A stretch of 56,044 bases of DNA from Candidatus Zhuqueibacterota bacterium. Lineage in GTDB: Bacteria; Zhuqueibacterota; Zhuqueibacteria; Oceanimicrobiales; Oceanimicrobiaceae. The stretch is taken from assembly GCA_029262005.1 (NCBI GenBank), contig JAJDAG010000052.1, forward strand, positions 1 through 56,044, read 5' to 3'. The notes beneath the pieces were generated by a model that saw nothing but the letters and a program-made list of their open reading frames with translations, ran no database searches and was not told the DNA's origin. Shown piece after piece: positions 13,542-49,342 of the stretch; the first letter of the stretch is position 1, and each line of letters opens with the position of its first letter. A program made the position numbers and the translations under genes.

Positions 13542-16500
13542 TTATTTGAGTAGCATCAATTTTTTCGATAAGGTTTGTTCACGTCCATCGGCAAAAGTTA
13601 CACGCAATTGGTAAAAGTAAACGCCACTTGCAAGACTTTTGGGCTTCCATAGCACTGTATGCTCACCGGCTTCTCTCTTACCAGCCAATAACTGCTCAAT
13701 GCGTTGACCCAGAATGTTGAATATTTCCAGTTTCACCTCTGCACCAACCGGCAAACTGAAGCGAATGTTGGTTGAAGGATTAAACGGATTCGGATAATTC
13801 TGCGCCAACTGGATTTTGGTAGGAACCAGCGACTTGGTATCAGAAACAGATACTGGGCCAGACGCAGATGATTCCACTGAATAAAACCCGGAAGACGACC
13901 CCATGGTAAGCTCATCATAAAGCAAAGTGTGCGTCAACTCGCCAGGGTACCCCCGAAACAACGTTGTTGCAGAATTTGAAACCGCATCGTAAACCAGGAT
14001 GTCCCGGCGGATGGCAAAATAAATGCTATCCGGATGATGCTTGTTAATGGCAACCGCTTCAAAAGCGCCTTCGCGCGGGCCGACTGCCATCATACTAATA
14101 GACTCAAGCGTGTGACCGCCATCGAATGTACGCACAATGGCATTACTTAAGTTTTCACCGCAAGCCATGTAAAGTGTATCAAGACTTCCGGGCTTGGCCA
14201 TCATTTCATTAACCGGCAGAGGGAATGGCGCTGGATTAAATGTACCATTCGGTGTCACTGCTACGCGTGACCAACTGGCACCCCAATCTAAGGATTTGTA
14301 CACGCCACCGGTATCAATGGCTGAGGCGTGAGTGACAGGATCGGTAGCAACTGCGCCGCCGCCAGCAAACAGCACCAACGAGTCTCTGGCAGTGTTCCAC
14401 GCCGTGACCACAGTTTGAAAATTATGATTTCCCGCTTGCGGCATCGTGGCCCAGGTTTGGCCGCCATCTGTGCTCAAAATAAGGGCGCCATAAAGAACAT
14501 GTTGCGTGTTCAAAGCAGCAATCACACTGTCGCTGGTTATAAACGTTATCTGGCTAACTTCACCACCCTGACCTTTAAAGGTCGGTTCGTCCAATCCACT
14601 GACGTCTCCATAAGCCACAGAATGCCAGTCTGAGTTGGTAAACCCGCCTGTTTCAGTCATGAAAATACCATTGCCATTGGCTGCCACAACATGGCTGGTA
14701 TTATGTGGATCGATTTCTATTGCAGAAAACCCCATATTACCCCCACCACTCGGGTTAATTGGATAATTCCCGTAGGGTGTACCCCATTTGGCTGTTCCTG
14801 CAATGGTTGTGTCAGTAAATACAGATGTGTAAGCAATGCCAACACTTGTGGCAAGGTAAACTTTGTCCATATCATTTGGAACCTGGGCAATATCCCAAAT
14901 GGTGACGCCTTCAATGCCTGTTGGCACGAACAAAAACTCACCATTCAGCCCGGTTGTCGAGCGCGCCGGGGCGCCATCGCCTTGACTGAAATAAATATAG
15001 GTATTCGGAATATGTCCGATGCCCGCATTCGCATTGGAAACGCGATCTACATACGGATCATTTTGTGGCGTGTAATCATCCCAGGTGTCACCAAGATCAT
15101 CTGAATATTTTTGTTCTCCTACCAGAAATAGTCGTATATTATCTGGTCCGGTATAATTTGAATCCTGGTAAATCTTAACTTTGGGCGCCATAAAAGGATT
15201 GGCTGAAATATAAATCTGAGTCCAGGTCAAGCCGGCGTCATAAGAGCGCCAGGTGCCATTCATGGCAGAATTTGCTTGCGATAGAACTGCTGCCCACAAA
15301 GTGTCACTGGCCAGAGGATGCGAAGAAAAGCCAAGAACTGTATCGGCAGTATCTGAGCCTGAAGCTACATAAATTGGTGTGAAAGTGCTGCCATCTACGG
15401 TGCGGTAAAATGCATCACCCGGTCGGTCAAAACTACCTCCCAAGGTTGCGTAAAATCCCTGACCACTTGGGTCATCTCCGTGAACAGCAAGGGCCGTTAC
15501 AACATCACTGGACGAGGAAATCGCCGAGGCGTCTGGTAACACGCTTATATCCCAGGTCACACCGGCGTCTGCTGTTCGGAAAACAAAATTTTGAATACCG
15601 ACCAACGCAACCGGTCCATGACCAGATAAAGCGAAAGTAGCAAACGGGCCTGGTGCGGCTGCGCTGCCAAATTCTGCTTTAAGTAATTTAGAAGCCAAAT
15701 AACCGTCCATAAGTGTACGCCAATTTACGCCGTCCGTCGAAACCTGAGTACCGGTCAACAGGCCGGCTTCCTGGCTGTTGCGCGCGTAGCAATACCCACC
15801 AGATGACAGAACCTGCATACCGCGGCCACCAAACCCACGCACAGTGCCGTCCGTAATAAATTCCAGTGAATCCGTTGAAAATGCCGGGGTCCAGGTCAAA
15901 CCACTGTCCGCAGACATAAATACAGATTGTGGTGTGGCAATGGCTGCCAACATAATTCCATTCACTTCATCAAACGCCATGTCCAGGGCGGTGCCGCCAT
16001 ATAAACCAAGGTTGGTGCGGCCATCAGTTGTTGCCAGTTGCGGCACCGGAGGAGGTGGTGGCGGGTCGCCACCGCCGCCACTTTTCTTAAGAAACAATAA
16101 ACCCGGTCGCACGATTATTGGATCGGCAGTTTCTTCAACGCCGTGTTTTGTGAGATAAAGTCCTGTGGGCCGTATTTCTATCACAGATTCAGGTGGCGCC
16201 GCGGCTTGCACTTTGCCAGTCAATCCAACAAGCGGGAGTGGCCCCATGTCAGTATGCACAAGATTGCTGTCTGTTGGTGCCTTGAGATCTATCATAAATG
16301 AATCCCCGGCCGCGACAGAGGAAATCGTCCAACCGTTTAAGTCAGGCGACAGCAAATGTCCGGTAGAATTCCACTCAATAAACGAAGGCGCAGCACGGAG
16401 CACCAGACGTATTCTGCTCAATTCAGAATCAGCAGGAAATGGTTTCGCCAGTACAAAATCCAATACAAAATTGGAATCGGGCATGGAAAAAGCATCAAAA

Positions 16501-17558
16501 AAGGCAAAAATCTCTGTGCCGCCTCCAGGAGGTGGACCCGTGCCACCACCTTTGTCCATAATTACCAATCCAGGCTGAACAATGTTTGGATCTTCAACAT
16601 TTTCCACACCGTGCCGAGTGAGAGCGACTGCAATTGGAATAACATCAACGACACTATCCGGAGGCGCAGATGCCTGCACTTTTCCTGTCAAACCAACAAG
16701 TACAAGTGGATTGACATCCGTATGAACAAGAAAGGAACCGGAGGGCGCTTCCAAGTCGATTGTCAGCGAGTCGCCCGCGGCAACTGTGGTTAAGGTCCAG
16801 CCACTGATTTCAGGAGCAAGAAAATGTCCTGTTGTATTCCAATCAAGAACGGGTGGGTTTGCCTTGACAACCAGATGAACTTTACTTAACTCAGAATCAG
16901 CCGGGACTGAATTGATCAATCCGAAATCAAGCACAAAGTTGGAGTCAGGCTTCGACATAGTTTCAAAAATAGCAAAAAGTTCTGCTCCTCCCGCAGGAGG
17001 TGGAGCCGGTTGGCCGATAAATATTTTTACAGGCACAAATTCAGAATCCGGAAACGCAACGACATTACCTTGACTAACAAGAGAAACATCACCCAGTTTA
17101 AGCTCCAGGCTATCACCATCAGCAAGTCCAGCCGAGAGAAGACCTGTGACCCAAAATAACAATTCCGGTGGGCCGTCAGGCTTAACATAAAACGTACCGC
17201 TCGGAGCCGTTGCCTCTACACGGATGGAATCAGCACTGGTTGTAACAGCAAAAATCCACCCAGCGAGCGTTGTCTTCGCCGTGTCCACCGGTAAAAAAGT
17301 CAGATCACTTGACTGTTTGCGGATGGTCATTGCAAAACCAGTAACTTGTGAATCAGCAGGCACTTCCGGGTAGATTTCAACCGGGAGTACAACACTGTCG
17401 CCAGCAGCGAAAAATGAAAATGGAGGCATGCCGAGCAACCCCATCGGTGGTGGCGGGGGAGGGGCCTGAGCGCGGAGCAGTGAAGAAGTGTGAAACGAAA
17501 AACACACCGTCGCTGTTATCAGCAATAGTGCAGCAAGAACCTTTCGCGACTTACTCAT
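13542..17558 (-). CDS. Large secreted Asp-box protein with C-terminal sorting domain
   Basis: A 1,338-residue exported protein. A signal peptide (ends near LLRAQA) and a PPPPPP linker lead into a cohesin-like beta unit at about 45-185. Two tandem copies of a related unit of about 140 residues follow (about 192-335 and 345-490), each with the pattern SxPDSNFVLDF...PADSELS...STGH/TTGH...GWT...VAAGDS and separated by Gly/Pro-rich linkers. Residues ~510-1240 carry Asp-box (BNR) repeats such as SADSGLTW, TADAGVTW, SYDAGLTW and STDGGQTW, a beta-propeller of the sialidase/Vps10 type. The last ~90 residues are a type IX-like sorting domain (LAQNYPNPFNPSTNIRFSLP, ending LSKKLMLLK). It should be surface-anchored or released. 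No catalytic residues identified. Confidence 0.85.
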   Translation of the reverse strand: MSKSRKVLAALLLITATVCFSFHTSSLLRAQAPPPPPPMGLLGMPPFSFFAAGDSVVLPVEIYPEVPADSQVTGFAMTIRKQSSDLTFLPVDTAKTTLAGWIFAVTTSADSIRVEATAPSGTFYVKPDGPPELLFWVTGLLSAGLADGDSLELKLGDVSLVSQGNVVAFPDSEFVPVKIFIGQPAPPPAGGAELFAIFETMSKPDSNFVLDFGLINSVPADSELSKVHLVVKANPPVLDWNTTGHFLAPEISGWTLTTVAAGDSLTIDLEAPSGSFLVHTDVNPLVLVGLTGKVQASAPPDSVVDVIPIAVALTRHGVENVEDPNIVQPGLVIMDKGGGTGPPPGGGTEIFAFFDAFSMPDSNFVLDFVLAKPFPADSELSRIRLVLRAAPSFIEWNSTGHLLSPDLNGWTISSVAAGDSFMIDLKAPTDSNLVHTDMGPLPLVGLTGKVQAAAPPESVIEIRPTGLYLTKHGVEETADPIIVRPGLLFLKKSGGGGDPPPPPPVPQLATTDGRTNLGLYGGTALDMAFDEVNGIMLAAIATPQSVFMSADSGLTWTPAFSTDSLEFITDGTVRGFGGRGMQVLSSGGYCYARNSQEAGLLTGTQVSTDGVNWRTLMDGYLASKLLKAEFGSAAAPGPFATFALSGHGPVALVGIQNFVFRTADAGVTWDISVLPDASAISSSSDVVTALAVHGDDPSGQGFYATLGGSFDRPGDAFYRTVDGSTFTPIYVASGSDTADTVLGFSSHPLASDTLWAAVLSQANSAMNGTWRSYDAGLTWTQIYISANPFMAPKVKIYQDSNYTGPDNIRLFLVGEQKYSDDLGDTWDDYTPQNDPYVDRVSNANAGIGHIPNTYIYFSQGDGAPARSTTGLNGEFLFVPTGIEGVTIWDIAQVPNDMDKVYLATSVGIAYTSVFTDTTIAGTAKWGTPYGNYPINPSGGGNMGFSAIEIDPHNTSHVVAANGNGIFMTETGGFTNSDWHSVAYGDVSGLDEPTFKGQGGEVSQITFITSDSVIAALNTQHVLYGALILSTDGGQTWATMPQAGNHNFQTVVTAWNTARDSLVLFAGGGAVATDPVTHASAIDTGGVYKSLDWGASWSRVAVTPNGTFNPAPFPLPVNEMMAKPGSLDTLYMACGENLSNAIVRTFDGGHTLESISMMAVGPREGAFEAVAINKHHPDSIYFAIRRDILVYDAVSNSATTLFRGYPGELTHTLLYDELTMGSSSGFYSVESSASGPVSVSDTKSLVPTKIQLAQNYPNPFNPSTNIRFSLPVGAEVKLEIFNILGQRIEQLLAGKREAGEHTVLWKPKSLASGVYFYQLRVTFADGREQTLSKKLMLLK

Positions 17559-17934
17559 AATTCCTATTTCTCCTCATAGGTTAACTAAATCTAAAACAAT
17601 GCAGATCTGTTGAATATGCTCAATAAAATATTGTGATTCCCATATGACCGTATCGACACATTTTAAAAATAAATTAGCAATAAGTATTCTATGGAGACAA
17701 AAACCAATTAAAATTCACCGGCAAAGACCAATTCAGCTCAGAATATCAGAATTTTCGCTTCGTCCAAAAATATTTTGTAAGAATGATGACTGTTCGCTGC
17801 GAGTACATACAAAGTCAAGGCAATCTCCTCTGTTTTTCTATGCGAGAATATTTATGCCTTATTTTTAGTTGTTTTTTTAAAATGTGATGGCTATTCTTTT
17901 TGAGGTTAAATTTGAACGATACAAAGGGGAAACA
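17559..17934. other. Divergent promoter region before the fusion enzyme
   Basis: An AT-rich gap between the divergent secreted-protein gene and the molybdoenzyme fusion. No gene or strong palindrome seen. The frame of the fusion is open from 17884, but the preferred start is 17935, behind AAAGGGGAAACA. Confidence 0.4.
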
Positions 17935-20900
17935 ATGTCTGATACCAATAAAAAGCAAAATGATAGCGATTGGCATAAAGGAATATGTGGTATTTGTCCG
18001 GCAGGTTGCTGGGTGGAAGTCAAGAAAGAGTCTGGTAAAATCACAGACATTCGTCCTGACAAATCGCATACACTCGGCATGATCTGCCGTCGCGGCGAAC
18101 ATGCTCCGGAAATAATCTACTCCGAGCACCGACTGAAATACCCGATGAAACGTATCGGGCCAAAAGGCACACATAAATTTGAGCGTATTTCATGGGATGA
18201 GGCCTACGAAACAATAGTCGAAAACCTCAATAGAATCAAAAAAGAATCCGGCCCTGAAGCAGTATCTGTTTACACCGGCCGTGGCGCTTTTGAGCTTTCG
18301 CTGTGCGATTTGTATCAACCCAAAGACGTTGCTGTATCTTCAGCTTCAAACATTCTCTTCCCATTTGGTTCGCCCAACACAATGGGGGTTGGTGCTCTCT
18401 GCTATGTTTCTTTCGCCATGATCGCCCCGCACGTCACCATGGGGCGCATGCTGGTGAACATGTTTAACGACATGGAAAATGCCGAACTTCTTTTTATCTG
18501 GGGTGCAAACCCGGCAACCGATTCGCCGCCTTTGGACATGCAACGATTAGAAGCCGCGGCAAAACGTGGCGCTGAAATCGTGGTCATCGATCCGCGGCGC
18601 ACCGATACGGTCAAACGCACCGGTGCGCAGTGGGTGCCAATCAGGCCAGGCACGGATGGCGCGCTGGCCCTGAGCATGATTGAAGTAATGCTGCAGGAGG
18701 ATCTTTACGACGAGGATTTTGCCGAGAACTGGTGTCACGGATTTGATGAGCTTCGCAACTACACTCAGCACTTCAGTCCTGCGGTGGCAGAAAATATTAC
18801 AGGTATTCCCGCAGAAACAATTCGAAGTCTGGCCCGTCGCATTTGTCAAGCCACCGGCGCTTGCCCGGTGATGTACACTGGGCTCGAATATTCAAACAGC
18901 GGCATTCAGGCAATTCGCGCCGTACTCGCCCTGTTCTCGCTGGCCGGGCATCTCGATATGCCCGGCGGCATTGGTCTGGGCATGCTGGACACCCATTTTC
19001 CAATCAACCGCAGTTGTAACCAAAAAAACCCAAATATCGACCTTGCCGTGGCCCGGGACAAAGTACCGATTTACAGCGACTATCGCGGCGAATCACACGC
19101 CAGCGGACTTGTGGATTCAGTTTTGCACGGTGACCCTTACCGCATCCGCGCTTTGATCATTCATGGCGCTTCCTTACTGACTTCCTGGCCACAAACGCCG
19201 ATTTGGCGGAAAACACTGTCCAAACTCGATTTCCAGGTTTGCATCGATCGCCAGCTCACAGCAGATGCTGCCTACGCAGACATTGTACTACCAGCCACCA
19301 CCATGTTTGAAATCGATTCATACATGGTTTACGGGCCTATTTTCAGGCTGCGTGAAAAGTTGATTGAACCGGTTGGTGAAGCGCGCAACGATTACCTGAT
19401 CATGGCAGAGTTGGCTAAACGCCTGGGCTATGGCCACCTTTATCCGCAATCTGAAGAAGAACTCCTGCGGTTCGTGCTCCAGGGTTCTGGTTTTTCACTC
19501 GAAGAAATCAAAGATGCCAATGGCTGGGTCAAAATTCCAACTCCCATGATGGAATACAAAAAATGGCAAAAGGGCAGCCTGCGACCGGACGGCAAGCCCG
19601 GTTTCGATACACCAACAGGAAAATTTGAACTTTGGTCAACCATTTTGGAAGACTATGGCTACCAGCCGCTGCCAAAATATACTGAACCCAAAGAAGGACC
19701 GCTTGCCAGTCCTGAAACGGCAAAAGACTACCCACTCGTGTTTAATTCAGGAGCGCGGCCGCACACGGATTTTCGCTCGCAGCATCACGGCGTCCGCGGT
19801 TTGTGCAAAGACAACCCTGAGCCTGCCGTTGAGTTGAATTTCAAAGACGCTGCAGAGCGTGACATCACTACGGGGGATCTGGTGCATGTCCAAACCACTC
19901 GCGGTTCAGTCGCCTTCCGAGCGCGTGTAACAGACGATATTGCCAGTGGCAGCATTGAGTGCAACATGGGTGGCGGCGGACCAGTCGGGCCAAAAGCATG
20001 GCAGGAATGTAACGTTAATGAGTTGACAGACATCAACAATTACGACGAGATATCCGGCTTTCCGGTTTACAAAGCGCTTCTGGCGGATGTAATCAAAGTT
20101 GAAAAAGGTTCGGCAAAAGTGAAGCGTCAAATGAATCGTACTGTCGATGCCTGCGGCCCGATTTTAATTAACAACAATGCCGCAAAAAACAAGACAGAGA
20201 AACGAATTTGTTTAGACAACAACGCCACAACCGAGTTGCATCCGCTCGCAAAAAATGAAATGCTGCCGTACCTGGATACAGCGTACGGCAACCCATCCAG
20301 CATTCACAGTGTTGGTCGCGACGCGAAAGAGGCTGTCGAAAAGGCCCGGCGCCAGGTGGCCAAACTCATCAATGCGCGACCGCGCAGCATTATTTTTACC
20401 GGAGGCGGCTCCGAGGCTGATAATCTCGCACTTAAAGGCGTTGCCTTTGCCATGGCTGAAAAAGGCAAGCACATCATCACCACGCAAATCGAGCATCCGG
20501 CGGTTCTCAGCACCTGCCGCTTTCTTGAAAAAATAGGCTACGATATCACCTACCTCGCACCCGATAAAAACGGCTGGATAGCGCCTGATAAATTACTTCG
20601 CGCGTTTCGAGACGAAACAATTCTTGTTTCAATTATGATGGCAAATAACGAAGTTGGAACGATTCTTCCAATAAAAGAAATGTGTGCCATCACGCACGAA
20701 CGTGGCGCACTATTTCATACGGACGCTGTCCAGGCAGCAGGAAAAATCAAAGTAGATGCGCAGGAATTGAATGTGGATTTGCTCAGTCTCTCCGGGCACA
20801 AATTTCACGGGCCAAAAGGCATCGGCGTTCTTTACATAAAAAAGGGGGTGAAAATCGAGCCACTGGTGCACGGCGGCATGCAAGAACACGGCCAGCGAGC

Positions 20901-21357
20901 GGGAACGGAAAACGTAGCGGCTATCGCCGGCATGGGCAAAGCTGCCGAATTGGCCTTGCGCTCCCTGCACCAAACAAAGGAGATGTTGATTCTACGCGAC
21001 AAACTCGAAGAAGGGATTCGCAAACGGTTGTCCGGTGCCATTCTGAACGGACATGTTGAAAACCGGCTGCCCAACACTTTGAATATGACGCTGCCCAAGC
21101 TGCGCGGTGAGTCTCTGGTTGTGGCCCTGGACCAGCATGGCATTTCACTTTCCTCCGGCTCGGCATGTAAATCAGGCTCGCCGGAGCCAACGCATGTGCT
21201 CATGGCAATGGGCAAAAGTGAAGAAGATGCCCATTGCGCCATTCGCGCTTCTCTCTCCCATCAAACAACAAAAGAGGAAGTAAAGCAAACTTTGTCAGCG
21301 CTCGATCAGGTATTGGAGGAAATGGAGACGACTGTGCGGTTTCTGCCGTGCAAGTAA
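17935..21357 (+). CDS. Molybdopterin oxidoreductase fused to cysteine desulfurase
   Basis: One 1,140-residue frame holds two complete enzymes. Residues 1-~730 are a bis-MGD molybdoenzyme of the DMSO reductase superfamily: a [4Fe-4S] motif (C18, C21, C25, C51), the molybdopterin core with FGSPN and a candidate Mo/W ligand C156 (GALCYVSF), as in polysulfide/thiosulfate reductase-like and Cys-type enzymes, and the C-terminal cofactor-binding domain with SGARPHTDFRSQHHG. A linker of ~25-40 residues leads to a cysteine desulfurase (756-1140) with His854 (IEHPAVL), PLP-binding Lys956 (SGHKFHGPKG) and active-site Cys1078 (SSGSACKSG), the NifS/IscS type. The start at 17935 has an AAAGGGG site; GTG 17884 and ATG 17887 are in-frame alternatives. 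No signal peptide, so cytosolic. No FdhD or electron-transfer subunit is adjacent. The substrate is unknown. Desulfurases give sulfur to FdhD for bis-MGD enzymes, so self-sulfuration is my inference. Confidence 0.92.
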   Translation: MSDTNKKQNDSDWHKGICGICPAGCWVEVKKESGKITDIRPDKSHTLGMICRRGEHAPEIIYSEHRLKYPMKRIGPKGTHKFERISWDEAYETIVENLNRIKKESGPEAVSVYTGRGAFELSLCDLYQPKDVAVSSASNILFPFGSPNTMGVGALCYVSFAMIAPHVTMGRMLVNMFNDMENAELLFIWGANPATDSPPLDMQRLEAAAKRGAEIVVIDPRRTDTVKRTGAQWVPIRPGTDGALALSMIEVMLQEDLYDEDFAENWCHGFDELRNYTQHFSPAVAENITGIPAETIRSLARRICQATGACPVMYTGLEYSNSGIQAIRAVLALFSLAGHLDMPGGIGLGMLDTHFPINRSCNQKNPNIDLAVARDKVPIYSDYRGESHASGLVDSVLHGDPYRIRALIIHGASLLTSWPQTPIWRKTLSKLDFQVCIDRQLTADAAYADIVLPATTMFEIDSYMVYGPIFRLREKLIEPVGEARNDYLIMAELAKRLGYGHLYPQSEEELLRFVLQGSGFSLEEIKDANGWVKIPTPMMEYKKWQKGSLRPDGKPGFDTPTGKFELWSTILEDYGYQPLPKYTEPKEGPLASPETAKDYPLVFNSGARPHTDFRSQHHGVRGLCKDNPEPAVELNFKDAAERDITTGDLVHVQTTRGSVAFRARVTDDIASGSIECNMGGGGPVGPKAWQECNVNELTDINNYDEISGFPVYKALLADVIKVEKGSAKVKRQMNRTVDACGPILINNNAAKNKTEKRICLDNNATTELHPLAKNEMLPYLDTAYGNPSSIHSVGRDAKEAVEKARRQVAKLINARPRSIIFTGGGSEADNLALKGVAFAMAEKGKHIITTQIEHPAVLSTCRFLEKIGYDITYLAPDKNGWIAPDKLLRAFRDETILVSIMMANNEVGTILPIKEMCAITHERGALFHTDAVQAAGKIKVDAQELNVDLLSLSGHKFHGPKGIGVLYIKKGVKIEPLVHGGMQEHGQRAGTENVAAIAGMGKAAELALRSLHQTKEMLILRDKLEEGIRKRLSGAILNGHVENRLPNTLNMTLPKLRGESLVVALDQHGISLSSGSACKSGSPEPTHVLMAMGKSEEDAHCAIRASLSHQTTKEEVKQTLSALDQVLEEMETTVRFLPCK

Positions 21358-21515: not shown

Positions 21516-23060
21516 ATGAAAACACAAGAAAAATACAAACTTTCGCCGCAAAAAATTGATGAAAGTATTGCGCTGCTCAAACATCTCGCCGAACACAGCG
21601 AGCAGCTCGTTGACCTGTCGGAAAAACAGAGAGTGGCCTTACTCACTGCCGCGGGAAAACTCTCTCGCCCTGATCGGCATGAAATCAGGAAGCGCAGGCG
21701 TGATGTACGGAAAGCCCGGCACCAGCTCATCACAGAGAAAGACCGGCGCGCCCGGGCTGCAACCGGTATCCGCAGCGCACGTACAGCAGAAGTATTCAAA
21801 GCGCCGGCCCAAGTATCCGGGGCAATTGCAGAGATAAACCCTGATGAACAAGAGTTAAGTTCTCCGCGCAATTGCTATGTTTGCAAAGCTGAGTTTACGC
21901 GGCTGCATTTTTTCTATGACTCCATGTGCAAAAGTTGCGGTGACTTCAATTATAAAAAACGGTTCCAGACCGCTCCGCTTCACGGTCAGATTGCCCTGAT
22001 TACCGGGGCTCGCTTGAAGATCGGCTATCAGGCGACACTGATGATGTTACGGGCGGGCGCCAGAGTCATTGCCACCACAAGATTTCCTGTGGACGCGGCC
22101 CTGCGTTATTCTTCCGAAGAGGGGTTTTCTGAATGGGGCGAGCGGTTGCAAATCTATGGTCTGGATCTAAGACACACGCCCAGCATTGAAATTTTTTCGC
22201 AATACATCGAACAAGAGCACCAACGCCTGGACATACTCATCAACAACGCCGCGCAAACTGTGCGACGGCCAGCCGGATTTTACGCCCATCTCATGGCCAA
22301 CGAGAATATCGAATCTCAGGAATTGCCGGAAAACGTTCAGGCCCTTCTGGGAAAACACCAGGCTTGCAAGGCACAACTCAATTTGCTTTGCAGCGACAAC
22401 TCCAGTTCAGCCAATCTGCCCGTGGCCTGGAATGGGCAAGGGCCGGGAATCGGGCTACGGGCCTCCGCACAACTTTCTCAAATTCCCTACAGCTATGATA
22501 ACTCATTAGATGTAAAAGAAGTTTTCCCAGAAGGACGGTTGGATGTTGACTTGCAGCAGGTGGACTTGCGCAAGACAAACAGTTGGCGGCAGCGTTTGGG
22601 TGAAATCCCAACACCTGAAATGCTGGAGGTACAATTGATAAACGCGGTGGCGCCGTTTGTTCTCTGCAATCGGTTGGCTGACCTGATGCGACGAGACCAT
22701 ACCGGCCAAAAACATATTGTTAATGTCACTGCAATGGAGGGCAAATTTCATCGCTTCAAAAAAGCCGACCGGCATCCGCATACAAATATGGCAAAAGCTG
22801 CCCTCAACATGTTGACCCACACCTCGGCCGGAGATCTTGGCAAAGACGGCATTTTCATGAACGCGGTTGATACCGGCTGGGTCACTGATGAGGACCCGGT
22901 AGATCTTGCTGAATTCAAACAAACCTCGCATGACTTTCAACCGCAGCTAGATATTGTTGACGGCGCGGCCCGACTTTGTGATCCTTTTTTTGACGGTATC
23001 TTGACCGGCAAACACTGGTGTGGCAAATTTCTAAAAGACTATAAACCAATTGATTGGTGA
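21516..23060 (+). CDS. SDR-family protein with zinc-ribbon-like segment, no catalytic Tyr
   Basis: A 514-residue protein. Residues 1-~105 are helical and very basic. A four-cysteine segment at about 116-143 (CYVC...CKSC) looks like a small zinc ribbon. A short-chain dehydrogenase fold follows, with [12 protein letters not shown] for nucleotide binding and [18 protein letters not shown]. At the catalytic site the usual YxxxK reads TNMAK ([11 protein letters not shown]) and the usual Ser block reads NVTAMEG, so the Tyr is replaced by Thr. The fold and Lys are kept. It may bind NAD(P) without standard reductase activity, or use another residue. It lies 158 bases after the molybdoenzyme fusion on the same strand and may be co-transcribed. 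The ATG has only a weak ribosome-binding site. Confidence 0.8.
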
Positions 23061-47509: not shown

Positions 47510-49342
47510 ATGACTCTATATTGCCAGATCTCCCTGCAACTGTTTTTCTGTCTCCTGTTATCCATGCCAGGGTTCGGGCAGCCATTTCAACTGCAAACCC
47601 AGCAAGCTGGTATTAAGAACGCCTACTATGGCAATGGTGTTGCTGCTGCAGATTATAACAACGACGGCTTTATTGACATATACATGGTTTCCAGCGATCC
47701 TACCCACCCTTCCAGTCCGGGTTCCGCAAATTCATTGTTTAAGAATAATGGAGACGGCACATTCACGAATGTCGCCAAAGAAGCCAATGTAGAGGGCACT
47801 ATTGACACAACGACGATTCCTCAGAACAATCTGGTTGAGAATTTTGGCGCATCGTGGGGAGATTTTAACAATGATGGCAATGTCGATCTCTACCTGACTA
47901 ACAAAGGGGTCGATGAACTCTACGAGAATTTAGGTGATGGGACGTTCAGAGACATCACCCACAGCGCTGGTCTTGATTTGTTAATTCGTGACAGCTCAAC
48001 CGCTGTCTGGTTTGATTTGGATAATGATGGCGATCTGGATCTTTATGTTGGCAGCTATGGAGAGCATGGCCTCCCAACCAGTTCCGACAATGTCATGTAT
48101 CGCAACAACGGTGACGGCACGTTTACCAACATAACAGCCATGACGGGTCTCGGGGAATCCGGCTTCACTTTCGTCACGATGGTATTGGACGTGAACAGGG
48201 ACGGTGCGCCGGACCTCTATTGCGTGAACGATTTTGGTAACAACTTTTTTTATCTGAACAAAGGCGATGGCACATTTCGCGAAGCCACCCGGGAGTTTGG
48301 GTTGGAAAACAGTGGCCATGGCATGGGGGTAACGCTAGGCGACTACGACAACGATGGCCTCTTTGATATTTACCTTACAAACATTGCCGATGACCTGCAG
48401 CAGGAATGGAGCCCCTTGTTCCGACAAACGGGATCTGGATATTTTCAAGATGTTTCATCGCAAACGGGCACCGGCATCACATACTGGGCCTGGGGCTGTG
48501 AATTTTTTGATTTTGACCTGGACGGGGATCTGGATCTTTATGTCGTAAATGGAACGTTCGGAAACGCTTTCCATAATCTTCTTTTCCGGAACAATAACAA
48601 CGGCACCTTTGAAGACTTCAGCCAGCAGAGCGGCGCTGACGGACAGGCAGAAGCCCGGGGACTATGCATTGCAGATTTTGATAATGATGGCCGGCTTGAC
48701 ATGTTTGTTGCAAATATCCGAGCCACAGCACATTTGTATTTGAACTCAATGCAAGATGGGAATTATCTGCAAATAAATTTGATTGGCACTCAAAGCAATC
48801 GCGATGCCCGGGGAGCCGTGGTTAGAGTGACCGCAAATAACAAAACTTACCATCGCCCCAACGATGGCATTGAGTTCTACGGACAATCAAAAGTGCCCCT
48901 TCATTTTGGTTTGGGCAGTGCCCGGGTTGTGCAAAATATAAAGGTTGAATGGCCGTCAGGGATACGGCAGGAATTTCAGAACATCCCGGTAAACCAGACG
49001 ATTACGGTAAACGAGAATTCCGGCATGGTCACCCATGTAAGAACTGAGAACGGTTCCCTCCCCAACCAGTTTGTTTTGCTAAACAATTACCCTAATCCGC
49101 TTCAGAGCCACACTCTTATTCATTTTAAGGCGGGCGCTTCAGCCAATGTAAAAATTGAAATATACGATATACTAGGCCGGCTCATAGCCGCACCAGTGCA
49201 GGCACAGTTTGCTGCAGGTACGCATAGCATCGCATGGGACGGAACAGACAAAAACGGCCGTTCTCTGCCTGCGGGACTCTATGTACAGAAACTGACAAGC
49301 GGACGTTTTAAATCTTATCGCAAGTTAGCCATACTAAGATAA
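47510..49342 (+). CDS. CRTAC1-like FG-GAP/UnbV secreted protein
   Basis: A 610-residue exported protein. A signal peptide ends near GFGQ. Residues ~30-425 hold many FG-GAP/VCBS repeats with calcium-binding-like DxNxDGxxD motifs (DYNNDGFIDIYM, DFNNDGNVDLYL, DLDNDGDLDLYV, DYDNDGLFDIYL, DFDNDGRLDMFV), forming an integrin-like beta-propeller. An UnbV/ASPIC domain follows at ~425-500 (LGSARVVQNIKVEWPSG). The C-terminus is a sorting domain (LLNNYPNPLQSHTLIHF, ending KSYRKLAILR). It should be on the cell surface. Its stop shares a base with the next start (TAATG), so it is in an operon with the thioredoxin-like gene. Confidence 0.92.
   Translation: MTLYCQISLQLFFCLLLSMPGFGQPFQLQTQQAGIKNAYYGNGVAAADYNNDGFIDIYMVSSDPTHPSSPGSANSLFKNNGDGTFTNVAKEANVEGTIDTTTIPQNNLVENFGASWGDFNNDGNVDLYLTNKGVDELYENLGDGTFRDITHSAGLDLLIRDSSTAVWFDLDNDGDLDLYVGSYGEHGLPTSSDNVMYRNNGDGTFTNITAMTGLGESGFTFVTMVLDVNRDGAPDLYCVNDFGNNFFYLNKGDGTFREATREFGLENSGHGMGVTLGDYDNDGLFDIYLTNIADDLQQEWSPLFRQTGSGYFQDVSSQTGTGITYWAWGCEFFDFDLDGDLDLYVVNGTFGNAFHNLLFRNNNNGTFEDFSQQSGADGQAEARGLCIADFDNDGRLDMFVANIRATAHLYLNSMQDGNYLQINLIGTQSNRDARGAVVRVTANNKTYHRPNDGIEFYGQSKVPLHFGLGSARVVQNIKVEWPSGIRQEFQNIPVNQTITVNENSGMVTHVRTENGSLPNQFVLLNNYPNPLQSHTLIHFKAGASANVKIEIYDILGRLIAAPVQAQFAAGTHSIAWDGTDKNGRSLPAGLYVQKLTSGRFKSYRKLAILR

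Follow-up and report, generated by a model that had tools for sequence, protein, structure and literature searches.

A molybdopterin enzyme fused to a cysteine desulfurase in a Candidatus Zhuqueibacterota bacterium is a probable metallopterin-dependent ergothioneine synthase

What might a polypeptide do that joins a bis-MGD oxidoreductase to a cysteine desulfurase? A gene for such a fusion lies on a contig of a Candidatus Zhuqueibacterota bacterium, analysed here over 56,044 nt (the window). The original prediction for this gene, correct as an observation and in part as an interpretation, held that fusions of this type were not known to have been examined biochemically. This claim of novelty was wrong: Beliaeva & Seebeck (2022; PMC9516567) described the metallopterin-dependent ergothioneine synthase (MES), with the members CaMES (from Caldithrix abyssi), AbMES, EaMES and hvMES. 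Sequence comparison indicates that the window gene encodes an MES, an assignment to which we give a probability of roughly 0.94.

Two enzyme modules in one reading frame

Translation of positions 17935-21357 (forward strand) yielded 1140 amino acids without a single internal stop, and a likely ribosome-binding site, AAAGGGG (17923-17929, forward strand), can be read 5 nt upstream of the ATG at 17935. Promoter and terminator scans returned results no better than shuffled sequence. Pfam placed Molybdop_Fe4S4 at residues 13-63, Molybdopterin at 66-496 (3e-43), Molydop_binding at 608-714 and Aminotran_5 at 759-1118 (7e-81) of the protein, confirming the predicted uninterrupted frame for a bis-MGD oxidoreductase and a NifS/IscS-type desulfurase. 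Pfam together with PDB and fold matches delimits a bis-MGD module of the DMSO reductase family (residues 13-714; 17971-20076, +), and Pfam, NCBIfam and PDB matches a cysteine desulfurase module of the NifS/IscS type (residues 758-1131; 20206-21327, +). The linker between them (residues 727-757; 20113-20205, +) varies among homologues, with model confidence being low at residues 737-754.

An AlphaFold2 model of the protein consists of two modules (mean pLDDT 87.4, pTM 0.82), whose folds match acetylene hydratase and IscS/Nfs1, respectively; pLDDT falls below 50 in the linker, a loop at residues 1078-1081 and the tail at 1134-1140. For the N-terminal module, the closest solved relative is acetylene hydratase (PDB 2E7Z; E 4e-71, Foldseek rank 1)—a relationship also reported by the MES authors (PMC9516567)—rather than the polysulfide and thiosulfate reductases to which it had been likened. 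Both share an Fe4S4 cluster and a Cys-ligated bis-MGD, but acetylene hydratase is devoid of a desulfurase module and hydrates its substrate instead of forming a C-S bond. The C-terminal module is closest in fold to NifS/IscS desulfurases (PDB 5WT2, 1P3W), with which it has the PLP lysine, the histidine and the persulfide cysteine in common; unlike these, it is fused and bears an extra cysteine at the penultimate residue, which is essential in CaMES. No MES chain was present among the PDB sequence matches of either module.

Narrower assignments were rejected on their NCBIfam scores. This applies to formate dehydrogenase (Fdh-alpha, 294 against a cut-off of 666) and polysulfide/thiosulfate reductase (PhsA, 264 against 694), as well as to an equivalog of NifS (503 against 531) or IscS (391 against 643).

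The immediate neighbours within the window are a T9SS-sorted protein on the opposite strand and a short-chain dehydrogenase. The former, divergent from the MES gene, comprises 1338 amino acids (13542-17558, minus strand) and combines a T9SS C-terminal sorting domain with weak Sortilin-like repeats; another large protein with such a sorting domain is encoded at 47510-49342 (+). The 514-aa dehydrogenase (21516-23060, +) is the first gene after MES, across a gap of 158 bp, and its SDR matches are split into two stretches (158-252 and 354-470).

Functional residues and a putative sulfur relay

Four MES homologues made ergothioneine in E. coli, the C-terminal module was demonstrated to have desulfurase activity, and mutation of Lys952, Cys1074, Cys1135 or Cys153 abolished the activity of CaMES (PMC9516567). 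All nine residues of that study were found in the window protein, with a numbering offset of 3-4. Cysteines C18, C21, C25 and C51 of the [4Fe-4S] site (17986-18087; this and all following codons on the forward strand), equivalent to CaMES Cys14/17/21/48, do not vary in any of the 80 ungapped homologues, and the Mo/W ligand C156 (18400-18402), corresponding to the essential Cys153, is invariant in 81 of 81. In the desulfurase module, the PLP lysine K956 (20800-20802; CaMES Lys952, essential) lies in an SGHKFHG motif and is a lysine in all 76 homologues with a called residue, while the persulfide cysteine C1078 (21166-21168; CaMES Cys1074, essential) is likewise conserved. The only exception for either residue among 81 aligned sequences is a single locus with a disturbed frame at that point (L043). 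The active-site histidine H854 (20494-20496) is invariant wherever homologues reach this position. All eight residues that had been called beforehand thus sit where they were predicted, although two cysteines had been left out: C1101 (21235-21237), equivalent to the non-essential Cys1097 of CaMES, and the penultimate residue C1139 (21349-21351), the counterpart of the essential relay cysteine Cys1135, which is invariant in all 75 homologues reaching the C terminus. Over 80 loci, the functional cysteines show practically no variation, and the Cys-Lys/Arg ending of the C terminus is retained.

A Calditrichota homologue of 1136 aa (L147) carries the nine residues at the exact CaMES positions and shares 61.3% identity with the window protein across 1129 aa; judging from its length and these positions, it is probably CaMES or a very near relative. 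CaMES and the window protein agree in domain order, length (1136 versus 1140), Fe4S4 cysteines, Cys metal ligand, PLP lysine, persulfide cysteine, C-terminal relay cysteine and the family-wide association with EgtD. They differ in that the window protein shares ~61% identity with L147, is not encoded next to EgtD, stems from a host with aa3-type oxidases, and falls into the other of the two main MES subclades of our tree, ending in CK instead of CR. With a bis-MGD module and a desulfurase in one chain, the nine residues, full-length homology and an EgtD co-encoded in the genome, the window protein joins a known family as a new, well-supported member and does not represent a new kind of enzyme.

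By analogy, the PLP-dependent C-terminal module would mobilize sulfur from L-cysteine onto C1078, from where it would pass via C1139 in the C-terminal tail to the Mo/W centre that C156 ligates in the bis-MGD module. The resulting metal sulfido group would then pass to the imidazole C2 of N-alpha-trimethylhistidine, so that ergothioneine forms in a single O2-independent step; the trimethylhistidine would be supplied by EgtD, whose gene lies on a different contig of the host genome. We infer both ergothioneine production and the order of this relay. For MES, sulfur transfer occurs within one polypeptide, and a sulfido-metal intermediate attacked by trimethylhistidine has been proposed (PMC9516567). 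In the model, the low confidence of the loop and tail that bear both relay cysteines fits mobile sulfur carriers, without proving movement. One of the two readings offered by the original prediction—cysteine-derived persulfide serving the Mo/W site as a co-substrate—essentially agrees with the published mechanism; the sulfur route to the metal was anticipated, and the acceptor, trimethylhistidine, was missed.

Two other enzymes invite comparison. EanB, a rhodanese-type ergothioneine synthase, likewise sulfurates trimethylhistidine independently of O2 (PMC9516567), but has an unrelated fold, uses polysulfide as the donor and is metal-free. The sulfoxide synthase EgtB (TIGR03440) occupies the same position after EgtD as MES does, but depends on iron and O2 and occurs in the host phylum only where MES is absent.

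Pathway context and competing functions

Of 81 MES loci, 38 encode a neighbouring protein of a ~333-aa family, often within 110 bp. All 36 scanned members hit PF10017, the family of histidine-specific methyltransferases to which EgtD belongs, and this points to ergothioneine. Among 34 MES genomes without EgtD in the fetched locus (a set that overlaps the phylum search below by a few genomes), 26 encode an EgtD over the cut-off elsewhere. The host genome carries a single EgtD (G000:C53:3345-4259) on a contig other than that of MES, which matches PF10017 at E 3.5e-110 and exceeds the TIGR03438 cut-off; a full-length EgtB is absent from this genome. EgtD is not universal among MES genomes, since none over the family cut-off was found in three MES genomes of one genus within the phylum and in several outside it, some of these assemblies being incomplete.

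Across the 82 genomes of the host phylum, strong EgtD matches were obtained in 16: six with MES, six with EgtB, four with neither and none with both. Co-occurrence of MES and EgtD (6/9 genomes, compared to 10/73 of the remainder) exceeds expectation by Fisher's test (p 0.0013), a value inflated by relatedness. Full-length EgtB (E < 1e-90) was restricted to the six EgtD-positive, MES-negative genomes. In four EgtD-encoding genomes (G006, G011, G044, G057), searches for MES and EgtB detected no MES and no full-length EgtB. Should the assignment be right, the window gene and its host lineage gain a function, namely ergothioneine synthesis without EgtB, in place of what had been put forward as an unknown.

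Could the protein apply this chemistry to a different imidazole or heterocycle, with ergothioneine as a mere side activity? The MES authors suggested that further heterocycle sulfurases may exist (PMC9516567), and one genus of the phylum combines MES with a lack of EgtD and with changes at conserved positions. The window protein, however, has retained the residues that the majority, linked to EgtD, conserves, and an EgtD is present in its own genome, so that we regard this reading as very improbable.

We grant slightly less to a purely maturational role, in which the desulfurase would install a one-time sulfido ligand in place of FdhD and the N-terminal module would catalyse some unspecified redox reaction. 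IscS provides the precedent, donating sulfur to FdhD for sulfuration of the Mo centre. In keeping with the suggestion of FdhD-free cofactor sulfuration, searches for FdhD found none in the host genome or in 12 of the 15 MES genomes tested; therefore, MES probably does not need FdhD. Yet EgtD linkage is recurrent, and the K952A variant of CaMES separates turnover from activation: it kept sulfur exchange between ergothioneine and TMH, with de novo product being almost nil (PMC9516567). Sulfur would hence reach the metal without FdhD, as had been proposed, but as a step of turnover rather than of maturation.

Breakdown of ergothioneine for sulfur recovery, the reverse reaction, can draw on the reversibility of sulfur transfer by CaMES (PMC9516567), but is at odds with the linkage to the biosynthetic EgtD and with a fused module that donates sulfur; we deem it highly unlikely and return to MES as an ergothioneine synthase.

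Distribution, oxygen and an EgtD-less genus

Apart from the fragmentation of the host assembly (205 contigs), nothing was found in favour of an assembly or sequencing artefact merging two adjacent genes, and this practically negligible explanation is refuted because the same fusion recurs in homologues of numerous phyla and assemblies. In a scan of 84,980 species for the Mo module, the best 80 loci were kept; all 80 contain this module and 79 carry both modules in one frame, the exception (L079) ending inside the Mo module. With 79 homologous fusions, a junction artefact is ruled out, and the outcome named beforehand as refuting the prediction, absence of the fusion from every other genome, did not occur. 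Within the host phylum, nine of 82 genomes have it, with full or near full-length matches at 56-80% identity to the window protein; in eight genomes of the same class other than the host, the junction is spanned in one frame in separate assemblies. By record name, the fusion loci include Gemmatimonadota, Calditrichota, Latescibacterota, Chloroflexota, Actinomycetota, Bdellovibrionota, Myxococcota, Acidobacteriota, Nitrospirota, Planctomycetota (anammox genera among them), Pseudomonadota and a methanosarcinal archaeon.

Two genomes deviate in detail. In one fragmented assembly, MES is split over two frames with a break near residues 520-527, away from the junction (G004:C39:22878-26242). In another (G021; L011, L032), a single in-frame TAG stands at the position of the conserved W87, the rest of the MES being intact; in L032, this separates the beginning of the Mo module from the remainder. 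The TAG may reflect an error in sequencing, recoding or recent pseudogenization.

MES was stated to be encoded exclusively in anaerobes (PMC9516567), which we take as a correlate of the organisms sampled first and not as a trait that defines the enzyme. In the phylum, each of the nine genomes with MES gave a strong COX1 match, and the host encodes two CtaD-type oxidase subunit I genes (G000:C142:12463-13791 and G000:C42:20024-21424), one of them above the curated cut-off. Among 50 MES genomes, 25 have a CtaD at E <= 1e-60, with 15 of these exceeding the cut-off. Such hosts with an aa3-type oxidase speak against exclusive anaerobiosis, although gene content is no proof of aerobic growth and the hosts may be facultative. 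The census, with at least 79 fusions from many phyla and oxidase-bearing genomes among them, would thereby correct the view that MES is a curiosity confined to strictly anaerobic organisms.

The EgtD-less genus (G012, G024, G050) carries MES, yet no EgtD reaches the cut-off in any of its three genomes, two of which are 97-98% complete. Its MES sequences form a long branch and share changes at conserved sites (C124N, S136T, A154S, S462T, L493I, T822Q), with A154S adjoining the metal ligand; two more conserved positions are changed in the two sequences extending that far. Possibly, MES acts on a different substrate here, the alternatives being trimethylhistidine uptake or missed genes. In two of these genomes, an ATP-grasp gene of the cyanophycin-synthetase/GshAB type lies directly downstream of MES (G012, L136:7609-12323; G024, L137:8494-13013). 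A broader family, in which oxygen-respiring lineages make ergothioneine with MES and, in addition, this genus sulfurates another substrate via the same cysteine-to-Mo-to-imidazole chemistry, is a tentative notion that we consider rather doubtful as a whole. Even if it held, the window protein would remain an ordinary MES; the EgtD-less clade offers a concrete starting point in the search for another substrate of C-S bond formation by Mo enzymes.

Four clusters place a fused OpuAC-permease and an ABC ATPase beside EgtD/MES (L045:13411-16726, L103:560-7230, L061:6539-13429, L097:8795-15796). The pair resembles betaine-type uptake systems and is possibly a transporter of trimethylhistidine or ergothioneine; EgtU ergothioneine transporters have a fused form of this kind. 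In Chloroflexota, a 175-aa gene adjoins MES and EgtD (L046:14612-15136, L053:7908-8432, L055:272-796) and is DinB_2/mycothiol-S-transferase-like, as assigned by Pfam on the L046 member.
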